A stretch of 64,000 nucleotides of DNA from Denitrovibrio acetiphilus DSM 12809 (GTDB taxonomy: Bacteria; Chrysiogenota; Deferribacteres; Deferribacterales; Geovibrionaceae). Position numbers and translations under genes: made by a program. The notes under the pieces were generated by a model. That model was not told the DNA's origin. It saw only the letters and a program-made list of their open reading frames with translations, and did not search any database. The stretch is from assembly GCF_000025725.1 (NCBI RefSeq), contig NC_013943.1:2356001-2420000 (forward strand), given 5' to 3'. Position 1 is the stretch's first letter, and each line of letters begins with the position of its first letter. Shown here piece by piece: positions 25,237 through 28,190 of the stretch.

Positions 25237-26121
25237 ATGGCAGAAATTCTCGCAGTAGCCAGCGGCAAAGGCGGAGTTGGAAAAAGCTTTTTCTCATCCA
25301 GCATTTCTATGTCGTTAAAATATGCTGGAAACGACACACTTCTTGTTGATGCTGATCTCGGCGGTGCAAACCTTCATGACTTTGTTGGGCTTAAAGTTCC
25401 CGGTCTGGGGCTTTATGAATTTCTCAAAGACAAAGTTGACATACAAAAAGTTATAACGAATTCCCCTGCCGGAATTGACTTTATAGGCGGCTCCAGTGAT
25501 GTTCTGGGCATGGCTCATATCACTAATTTTGAAAAACTTAAAGTGTTGAATAAATTAAAGAAGCTTGATTATAAATATGTCCTGCTTGACCTTGGAGCGG
25601 GGACAAGTTTTAACACTGTGGATTTCTTCAACTTTGCCGATAAAAAAATCGTAATAATGAATTCCGAACCCACAGCAATAGAGAATTCCTACGGTTTCCT
25701 GAAAGTTGCACTCTATAGAAAAATTGAGCTGTATCTCAGAAAAAATCCTACAGCAGCAGATATCTGCAAAAGACTGCATACCAGAAGCATGCAGTACCCT
25801 AATATTACAAGCATATTCAAAGACCTATCAGCCGCAGATCCTGTCGCAGCTGAAGAAGTACGTCATATAGTAGACGAGTTCAGGGTCGGCATAATTTTAA
25901 ATCTGATCAGAACACGTAAAGAACTTAATGTTTTTTACGGTTTTGAAAGTATTACTAAAAAATATCTTGGTATAAATATTGAAAAATTAGGTTTTATACC
26001 ATATGATATAAGCGTGAGCGAAAGCATAAAGCTTTTGAAGCCGTATTACTTAAACAATATGAAAAGTGATGTGTCGAAATGCATTGACGACATCCGAAGC
26101 CATATTATAACAAAGCTTTAA
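25237..26121 (+). CDS. MinD/ParA-family ATPase, FlhG-like
   Basis: 294 residues with the deviant Walker A motif SGKGGVGKS at the N-terminus, DADLGGANLHDFVGL (Walker A' region) and DLGAGTSFNTVDFF (Walker B). The closest type is FlhG/YlxH, which regulates flagellar number and place. The following CheW and CheZ genes support a motility role. No amphipathic C-terminal MinD helix is obvious. ParA-like function for another cargo is possible. Confidence 0.8.
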   Translation: MAEILAVASGKGGVGKSFFSSSISMSLKYAGNDTLLVDADLGGANLHDFVGLKVPGLGLYEFLKDKVDIQKVITNSPAGIDFIGGSSDVLGMAHITNFEKLKVLNKLKKLDYKYVLLDLGAGTSFNTVDFFNFADKKIVIMNSEPTAIENSYGFLKVALYRKIELYLRKNPTAADICKRLHTRSMQYPNITSIFKDLSAADPVAAEEVRHIVDEFRVGIILNLIRTRKELNVFYGFESITKKYLGINIEKLGFIPYDISVSESIKLLKPYYLNNMKSDVSKCIDDIRSHIITKL

Positions 26122-26131
26122 GGGGTGCCAG

Positions 26132-27118
26132 GTGAGCAATTTACAACCTATTGGCGAACTTGATTACGACGATAACGAGCAGAGAGAAGGGATGGAAGTC
26201 ATCCAGCTTGTTGGTCTTAAGCTAGGGGAAGAGGAGTACGCAATTGATATACTCAAAATACAGGAAATTATAAGAACTGTTGAAATCACATCAGTCCCGC
26301 GCACAGAGGGTTTTGTTCTCGGCGTAATGAACCTCAGAGGCAAAGTAATCCCTGTTATAGACCTTCGGATAAGATTTTCTCTGGATAAAATGGACTTCGA
26401 CAAAGAGACCAGAATCATAGTTGTAAGATTTGAAACTGAAAATATAGGCTTTGTTGTTGACGAAGTGACCGAAGTTATACGCATTAATAAAAGTATGGTT
26501 GAACCTACCCCCCCACTTGTCGGCACTGTCGGGCAGGAATATATACTCGGCATATGCAAATACGCTGAACGTCTTATCATATTGCTGGACATAGACAGCG
26601 TTGTCAGTGATGACAAAAATATCGAAAGTGACCTTAAAAAAACAATTCTCGGACAGGTGGCTCTCCCCTCCGCTGAACAAAACTATCAACAGATAGCATC
26701 TGCTGTGGAAAAAGAATATGCCGAACCAGAAGACAGCGGACAAAATGCTATAGGAACAGACACACAGGGAGAAGATGCTATAGAGGAAGGATCTGCTGAT
26801 GACGATGTGGGTGCTTCCATAGACGACCTCATCGCCCTTGAGCTTTCCAAAAGAGAAGCTGAAACCGATGAACTTAATAAGAAGAAGCATGAAGAAGAAG
26901 CTGCACAGGCTGACTCAAAAAAAAAACCTGAAGCAGTAGATAACCTTTCGTGCGATCTGGATGATATCCTTAATGATGCTCTGAACCAGAGTGGAAGCAA
27001 AATGGAGTCAGAAGAAGGTCATGTTGAACAAAATGAACTTGATGACCTAATAGCAATTGAACTAAACAAAAGAGAAGCTGAGACAGAAGCTCTCAAAAAA
27101 AAAAAAAACAATAACTAA
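26132..27118 (+). CDS. cheW: CheW chemotaxis coupling protein with long acidic tail
   Basis: 328 residues as read. Residues ~20-165 are a CheW domain (EEYAIDILKIQEIIRTVEIT, VPRTEGFVLGVMNLRGKVIP, GFVVDEVTEVI). CheW links receptors to the CheA kinase. Residues ~180-328 are an acidic, Glu/Lys-rich tail with a near repeat: DDLIALELSKREAETDEL and DDLIAIELNKREAETEAL. The frame ends just after a run of 14 A. The CheZ frame lies one base off and is open through this point, so the true product may be a 685-residue CheW-CheZ fusion. GTG start, AAGGGG site. Confidence 0.85.
   Translation: MSNLQPIGELDYDDNEQREGMEVIQLVGLKLGEEEYAIDILKIQEIIRTVEITSVPRTEGFVLGVMNLRGKVIPVIDLRIRFSLDKMDFDKETRIIVVRFETENIGFVVDEVTEVIRINKSMVEPTPPLVGTVGQEYILGICKYAERLIILLDIDSVVSDDKNIESDLKKTILGQVALPSAEQNYQQIASAVEKEYAEPEDSGQNAIGTDTQGEDAIEEGSADDDVGASIDDLIALELSKREAETDELNKKKHEEEAAQADSKKKPEAVDNLSCDLDDILNDALNQSGSKMESEEGHVEQNELDDLIAIELNKREAETEALKKKKNNN
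27095..27108 (+). other. A14 homopolymer at the CheW/CheZ frame junction
   Basis: Fourteen A in a row. Loss of one A (or gain of two) joins the CheW frame to the CheZ frame with no stop, giving 685 residues. Such a run is a known kind of site for RNA polymerase slippage and for phase variation. It is also a common place for sequencing error. Confidence 0.8.
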
Positions 27119-27251
27119 AATAGCGACTGAGGAACCGGAAGAGGAACCTCAGTCCGACCCTGCCGCTGAAGAACCTCCATACAAAGAATCAAACTCAAAC
27201 TCTGACACAGAACTTGATGAAACAGATAAACTCTCCGTCAATGACAAACCT

Positions 27252-28190
27252 TTGGCAGAAGAACCTACAGCAGAATCCTCTGACAATATTGAAGATTTAA
27301 TAGAGGCCCCTGCGGACAATGAAGAGATCAACATCAATAAGCAGCAGGACGAGCTCCTACTTAATGATCAACCCGAGCCTTACTTAACCGATGAAAAGCC
27401 CGAGGAAGAAGCAACACATGAGAATCTTGAAAATATACTACCTGTCGAAGCCCCTGAGGAAAAAGTAGAAGAAAGCCTGCTCGAAGAAATTCATTCTGAG
27501 CAAACAGCAGAACCAAGTGAAACCATTCAGCCAGCAGAAGATGCTAATCCCATGGATGAGCTGAAGTCAATCTCTGCTCAAACTGTCGGCAGCAGCGAAG
27601 ATTCTTTTGATAAACTCAAAACTCTTTCCAAAAAAATCATCGACGGCGAAGCTGTTGATATAGGCATCGACCTTAAAAGTGAGATTAGCGAACTCCTTAA
27701 GCTCATACTTGACACAAAACAGAGAGTTGATGAAATAGAACCAACGCTGGCAACATCCAAAGAACACCTCCCGAATGTTCTGAGCACCCTTGAGTCTGTC
27801 ACAGAATCAACTGAGGATGCTACTTTCAGCCTGATGGAAAACGCTGATTCCCTTAATAATTTTTATCAGGAGTTTGTGGAAGAGATAAACGATCTTGAAG
27901 ACCTGATTTACAAAAAAGATGTAAACAACATAGTCAGAAAAATCGAAAAACTTGAAAACAATATGGAAGAAGCCGACAAAACAGGCTTCAACATACTGCA
28001 TGCACTCGAATTTCAGGACATCACCGAACAGAAAATACAAAAAGTAATCTCTTCAATAAGCGATATAGGGGCAAGGCTCGGTGCTATACTGGGATTCATA
28101 AAACTGAAACAGGTTCAGGATCCTACAGTGGCTGACGATGCCTCTCAGGATGACATAGACAAGCTACTTGCCGAATTCGGATTGGATTAA
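27252..28190 (+). CDS. cheZ: CheZ-type CheY-P phosphatase, start unclear
   Basis: 312 residues from the first canonical start, a TTG at 27252 without a ribosome site. The frame is open back to 27066, with no ATG or GTG. The C-terminal ~200 residues are CheZ: a long helical hairpin with LEFQDITEQKIQKV (D256 and Q260 match the E. coli catalytic Asp/Gln pair) and an end SQDDIDKLLAEFGLD like the CheY-binding tail. The upstream ~100 residues are acidic linker. An internal ATG at 27552 would give 212 residues, close to E. coli CheZ (214), but its site is weak. Either it is translated as part of a CheW-CheZ fusion or it starts at 27552. Confidence 0.75.
   Translation: MAEEPTAESSDNIEDLIEAPADNEEININKQQDELLLNDQPEPYLTDEKPEEEATHENLENILPVEAPEEKVEESLLEEIHSEQTAEPSETIQPAEDANPMDELKSISAQTVGSSEDSFDKLKTLSKKIIDGEAVDIGIDLKSEISELLKLILDTKQRVDEIEPTLATSKEHLPNVLSTLESVTESTEDATFSLMENADSLNNFYQEFVEEINDLEDLIYKKDVNNIVRKIEKLENNMEEADKTGFNILHALEFQDITEQKIQKVISSISDIGARLGAILGFIKLKQVQDPTVADDASQDDIDKLLAEFGLD

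Follow-up and report, generated by a model that had tools for sequence, protein, structure and literature searches.

A conserved poly-A run between cheW and cheZ is a probable recoding site in Denitrovibrio acetiphilus and other Deferribacterales

The window analyzed here is a stretch of 64,000 nucleotides from Denitrovibrio acetiphilus DSM 12809 (NC_013943.1, positions 2,356,001 to 2,420,000), and coordinates are window positions unless a genome or locus is named. Between 26132 and 28190 it holds a CheW region, an acidic linker and a CheZ region, all on the plus strand and divided between two reading frames. The features of the locus and its upstream neighbor are as follows.

25237–26121, plus strand: gene for a ParA/MinD-like ATPase, directly upstream of the cheW-cheZ gene
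26132–27118, plus strand: CheW ORF in the DNA frame, GTG start at 26132 (PF01584, E=4e-39); a CheW domain and then an acidic tail with two LDDLIxxELxKRExET repeats, together the predicted short product
26917–26926, plus strand: upstream A10 run, in frame, within the CheW tail; possible second slip site
27095–27108, plus strand: A14 slippery run, the frame junction between CheW and CheZ
27109–27551, plus strand: acidic linker, apparently coded in the CheZ frame, containing no start with a ribosome site
27116–27118, plus strand: TAA closing the short CheW product in the DNA frame, 10 bases past the A14 run
27125–27154, plus strand: hairpin GACTGAGG/CCTCAGTC, beginning 16 nt past the run
27552–28190, plus strand: CheZ phosphatase part, with the DxxxQ motif in FQDITEQ and a C-terminal SQDDIDKLLAEFGLD helix

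A first-pass annotation had named the two parts CheW and CheZ, and profile searches agreed with both names. The CheZ core scored 31.0 bits against PF04344, for which the cut-off is 30.7; all seven aligned members matched at E≤0.001, and the phosphatase motif was invariant among these seven relatives. A structure model of the CheZ core was all helical but of low confidence (pLDDT 57). A fold search with that model gave no significant match, and phmmer of the core against the PDB gave no CheZ match. The ParA/MinD-like ATPase gene adjoins cheW-cheZ in every locus checked, both across the order and in Chrysiogenia-like genomes.

Re-reading the DNA reproduced the arrangement described in the first-pass annotation: the CheW frame closes 10 bases after the A14 run, and the CheZ frame, one base off the CheW frame, has no stop from 27066 until a TAA whose last base is 28190. 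As had also been claimed, 13 A in place of 14 yields a single CheW-CheZ protein of 685 residues. The CheZ frame offers its first ATG at 27552 and only one earlier start, a TTG at 27252 that lacks a ribosome site. Additionally, the upstream A10 run is followed by stops 1 and 4 codons downstream in the two other frames and may give a still shorter CheW; Denitrovibrio and Seleniivibrio relatives carry A9–A10 at the same place. This in-frame run, the order-wide conservation and the stops in both off frames extend what the earlier annotation had noted.

A pattern search of the single-contig genome (3,222,077 bp) found the A14 run to be its sole tract of 12 or more A's. Seven tracts reach A≥10 in the whole genome, two of them in the cheW-cheZ gene and one in dnaX; of the remaining four, one runs antisense to a gene start and three fall where no open frame exceeds 83 codons. 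Long A-runs are uncommon in these Deferribacterales genomes generally. Separately, the part of locus L062 that encodes the signal peptide of a likely outer-membrane assembly protein contains a T10 tract on the sense strand (G000:C1:2427587-2427596), a possible phase-variable or slippage site.

When the CheZ frame was used as a query, matches were obtained in 46 of 60 genomes. Most Deferribacterales encode CheW and CheZ in one ORF of 520–735 codons, and every genome of the order with a readable linker (41/41) has a run of A10 to A14 within it. At least seven families have a run of exactly A10, usually written GA10T/G/C and encoding EKKN or EKKK, while Seleniivibrio and its kin have A11–A13 at ELNKKK. 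Given the protein and the codon usage, the product of the chances of A≥10 was 10^-9.4 over 30 in-frame genomes and 10^-4.8 with one value per genus, both of them rough values that ignore relatedness. Two observations weigh against a recoding site. In AT-rich members, codon usage is often enough to produce A10 in a lysine-rich linker (with a chance of up to 0.97 in a single genome), and in Chrysiogenia-like genomes A10 occurs in two of three, but nearer the CheZ end, the third being without it.

The linker itself varies in its repeats. Two LDDLIxxELxKRExE repeats precede the run in most of the order. Three Chrysiogenia-like genomes of the same phylum (L056, L057 and L058) have CheW-linker-CheZ beside a ParA-like gene with three or four repeats of the form LDDLIxxELxKREAE. 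In Denitrovibrio sp. BM704 a unit of about 37 codons (ELPEDLEDILEETEEV...) occurs four times in tandem, in near-identical form, in the CheZ-frame linker (L032), and genus g15 has DTADSLL repeats at that place. Two small genomes of the same class (about 1.3 Mb; L072 and L074) encode a long-tailed CheW and no CheZ; the tail in L072 retains a DEMIAMELALRE repeat.

The two parts are out of frame in the DNA in all three Denitrovibrio genomes (D. acetiphilus, G000, and the metagenome-assembled genus mates BM701, G001, and BM704, G002), in two genera of a second family and in one genus of a third. The A14 of D. acetiphilus needs one A fewer to restore the frame, and the A11 of each of its genus mates needs one more. 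In family f4, the A11 of G014 needs one fewer and the A10 of G021 one more; in genus g15 an A10 needs one more. The shift into CheZ is +1 in D. acetiphilus and G014 and −1 in BM701, BM704, G021, G033, G035 and G039. Every break is located at the run, and downstream of it the CheZ frame is open in each case. On the protein tree, changes into or out of frame number at least three, or about five when direction is counted. The BM701 copy also weighs against a recoding site, as its CheZ part has two nonsense codons, TAA and TAG (L033 5582-5590 and about 150 bases downstream), which may be assembly error or real decay.

These frame states bear on two other explanations offered in the first-pass annotation. 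One is that A14 is a sequencing error and that D. acetiphilus has a plain in-frame fused gene. The genome was assembled from 454 and Sanger reads, and 454 miscounts homopolymers (PMC3035293), so the count of 14 could be off by one; most relatives, moreover, are in frame. However, both other Denitrovibrio genomes are off frame as well, at A11 and in the opposite direction, and off-frame states recur in other families with A10 or A11. Because a run of 13 A would slip too, with both other frames closed, and because the genus mates are off frame, a count error would not remove the site and leaves the conclusion unaffected. We therefore consider an error very improbable as the whole explanation.

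The other is a phase switch at the DNA level, in which replication slippage would alter the run length and turn the fusion on or off between cells. Run lengths do range from 10 to 14, and the frame state differs within Denitrovibrio and within family f4. A contingency tract, however, would hardly stay fixed, and the run is exactly A10 in 10/10 genomes of g13, 3/3 of g3 and 4/4 of g15; across many species the length is the same, and the locus did not behave as a phase-variable locus in our test. Nor is a chemotaxis core gene among the usual phase-variable classes. Of the explanations weighed here, we hold this one the least probable.

Past the last run, the frame leading to CheZ continues for about 200 codons or more, and it alone is open. 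Both non-CheZ frames stop within 5 codons of the run in 36 of 38 genomes, whatever the DNA frame. Equally close stops at other linker positions would occur by chance with 2–28% probability per genome, and multiplied over 15 genera, with each genus represented by its worst value, these chances come to 10^-16.8, a rough guide that ignores relatedness between genera. We regard the mere presence of A≥10 as a weaker signal than these close off-frame stops.

Between the run and the CheZ core, the sequence also changes in the manner of coding DNA. Third codon positions change most between genus mates, with 13/19/35 changes at first, second and third positions for G035-G039 and 60/42/91 for G001-G002. 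This pattern indicates that the CheZ frame is the coding one in the linker past the run, as the first-pass annotation had supposed from its acidic reading. It also bears on the possibility that CheZ is translated alone from the internal ATG at 27552, making a fusion unnecessary. That ATG is kept at the CheZ start in the three Denitrovibrio genomes, but it has no ribosome site, and the frame upstream of it is open for 147 codons that have the look of coding sequence. In the off-frame genomes G014 and G021 there is no start codon between the run and the CheZ core, and in most relatives the two parts form one ORF. Separate translation of CheZ is accordingly about as improbable, in our judgment, as the sequencing error.

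A second gene in the same genomes has a similar arrangement. The dnaX gene of D. acetiphilus contains an A10 run (G000:C1:89991-90000, minus strand; locus L066/L087) with off-frame stops 3 and 2 codons later. Nearly all relatives have A9 or A10 at the same place with the same off-frame stops, and dnaX is off frame in two genomes, BM704 (G002) and G023. In Thermus thermophilus dnaX, the gamma product is made by slippage on an A9 run with stops in both off frames (PMC5009743; PMC1088944). Because their dnaX runs and stops are like those known in other bacteria, the Deferribacterales genomes seem to use one device in dnaX and cheW-cheZ.

The evidence in the DNA consists of the run, its conservation, the single open frame beyond it, the shifts of frame in either direction and the similarity to dnaX of the same genomes. 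From it we conclude that a run of 10 to 14 A's very probably lets one gene yield both CheW alone and CheW-CheZ across the order. The explanation we favor, with a probability of roughly 85%, is a single cheW-linker-cheZ gene with a programmed recoding site, acting mainly through slippage of RNA polymerase, that yields a short CheW and a fusion tethering CheZ to the array. RNA polymerase would slip on the run and produce mRNAs with more or fewer A's. Messages in the CheZ frame would be translated into the fusion; in all others translation would end a few codons later, leaving CheW and its acidic tail. In D. acetiphilus, unslipped messages would encode the short CheW and those with 13 or 16 A's the fusion; in most relatives, unslipped messages would encode the fusion and slipped ones the short form. 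A fusion made by slippage, with the run setting the ratio, had been proposed in the first-pass annotation, and comparison favors it: relatives are either in frame with A10–A13 or off frame at the run.

Three parts of this explanation are inferred: a mainly transcriptional origin of the slippage, the production of both proteins, and the tethering of the fusion to the array in a ratio that the run determines. Published work treats a mix of shift directions among orthologs as a mark of transcriptional realignment, since ribosomal frameshifting keeps its direction (PMC3711429). By this criterion, the occurrence of both directions among cheW-cheZ orthologs favors mainly transcriptional slippage. 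Our tests for it found an A-run of at least 9 at the junction, an unconserved direction and nearby stops in both non-product frames.

Alternatively, the products could arise mainly by −1 ribosomal frameshifting on A_AAA_AAG/C/A, in the style of Escherichia coli dnaX and aided by a hairpin. Every genome that is off frame by −1 has A_AAA_AAG or A_AAA_AAC in the CheW frame, from which a −1 shift enters CheZ. A hairpin lies 16–18 nt past the run in all three Denitrovibrio genomes, and its stability exceeds that of codon-shuffled sequences (z −2.1 to −3.3). The BM704 hairpin has one covarying pair relative to D. acetiphilus (GGCTGAGG/CCTCAGCC), while the BM701 stem differs. Such a hairpin would act on ribosomes and not on RNA polymerase. 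The Denitrovibrio hairpin is a candidate stimulator of ribosomal frameshifting and leaves room for a ribosomal share. Its start 16 nt past the run in D. acetiphilus is far for such a stimulator, however, and most genera have no hairpin; we considered it as a universal part of the device, dropped that idea and kept it as a Denitrovibrio feature. Furthermore, D. acetiphilus (A14) and G014 (A11) need +1 or −2 and not −1, the direction is not conserved, and the runs are longer than a ribosomal heptamer requires. We regard ribosomal frameshifting as an unlikely main route, albeit the strongest competitor to transcriptional slippage.

CheW resides in the receptor array, and CheZ dephosphorylates CheY. 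The domain order of CheW-CheZ suggests that the fusion would place CheZ covalently at the CheA/CheW receptor array, and that the fraction of CheW bearing CheZ would be set by the run. In E. coli, CheA-short brings CheZ to the array (PMC7750401). The genome of D. acetiphilus encodes, besides this gene, several further CheW domains and a separate CheZ of 216 aa; the fused gene therefore probably works in just one of several arrays. An apparent stop inside a CheA gene proved to be the end of that gene.

The LDDLIxxELxKRExET linker repeats (about 26810-27090 and in relatives) presumably resemble the CheY-docking peptides at the FliM N terminus and the CheZ C terminus. A more speculative view, which we think somewhat less likely even than a mainly ribosomal route, makes the slip ratio a tunable control point of chemotaxis and the short CheW a CheY~P-docking array protein rather than a plain CheW. 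Conditions that alter RNA-polymerase slippage would then alter what share of the phosphatase is array-tethered, and the short CheW would dock CheY~P through its repeats, like FliM or the CheZ tail.

We found no report of a CheW-CheZ fusion, or of slippage or frameshifting in chemotaxis genes, in the open-access papers searched. If the favored explanation is true, slipping of the polymerase on one A-run fixes how much CheZ is tethered to the array in a whole bacterial order; no paper in the open-access literature searched describes recoding put to this use in chemotaxis. The effect of phosphatase placement and dose on the chemotactic signal would then become testable. Since run length and frame state differ naturally among the orthologs, and dnaX can serve as an internal control, the gene would also lend itself to studies of how slippage sites evolve. 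For annotation, reliance on the DNA frame alone splits or truncates cheW-cheZ in some genomes.

Among known systems, T. thermophilus dnaX (tau/gamma) likewise has a long A-run late in a shared ORF, with both non-zero frames stopped nearby and a full-length and a short product (PMC5009743; PMC1088944). Unlike it, cheW-cheZ is a chemotaxis gene, its predicted short form retains the adaptor domain and loses the enzyme domain, and its DNA frame varies between orthologs. The two-ORF dnaX genes of a GeneTack cluster are similarly joined by a poly-A shift, there mostly at A10 (PMC3711429), but belong to replication and have a single reported direction, whereas both directions occur among cheW-cheZ orthologs. 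Orthologs also differ in shift direction in the families of IS630-type transposases with poly-A realignment; in contrast to these, cheW-cheZ is a host signaling gene of which both products are expected to work. With E. coli dnaX (−1 at A_AAA_AAG) it shares the heptamer in some relatives and a downstream hairpin in Denitrovibrio, but its direction is not conserved and most genera are without the hairpin. Finally, similar to E. coli CheA-short, an alternative form of an array protein would put CheZ at the array (PMC7750401), although there the association is non-covalent and here it would be a covalent fusion made by recoding.
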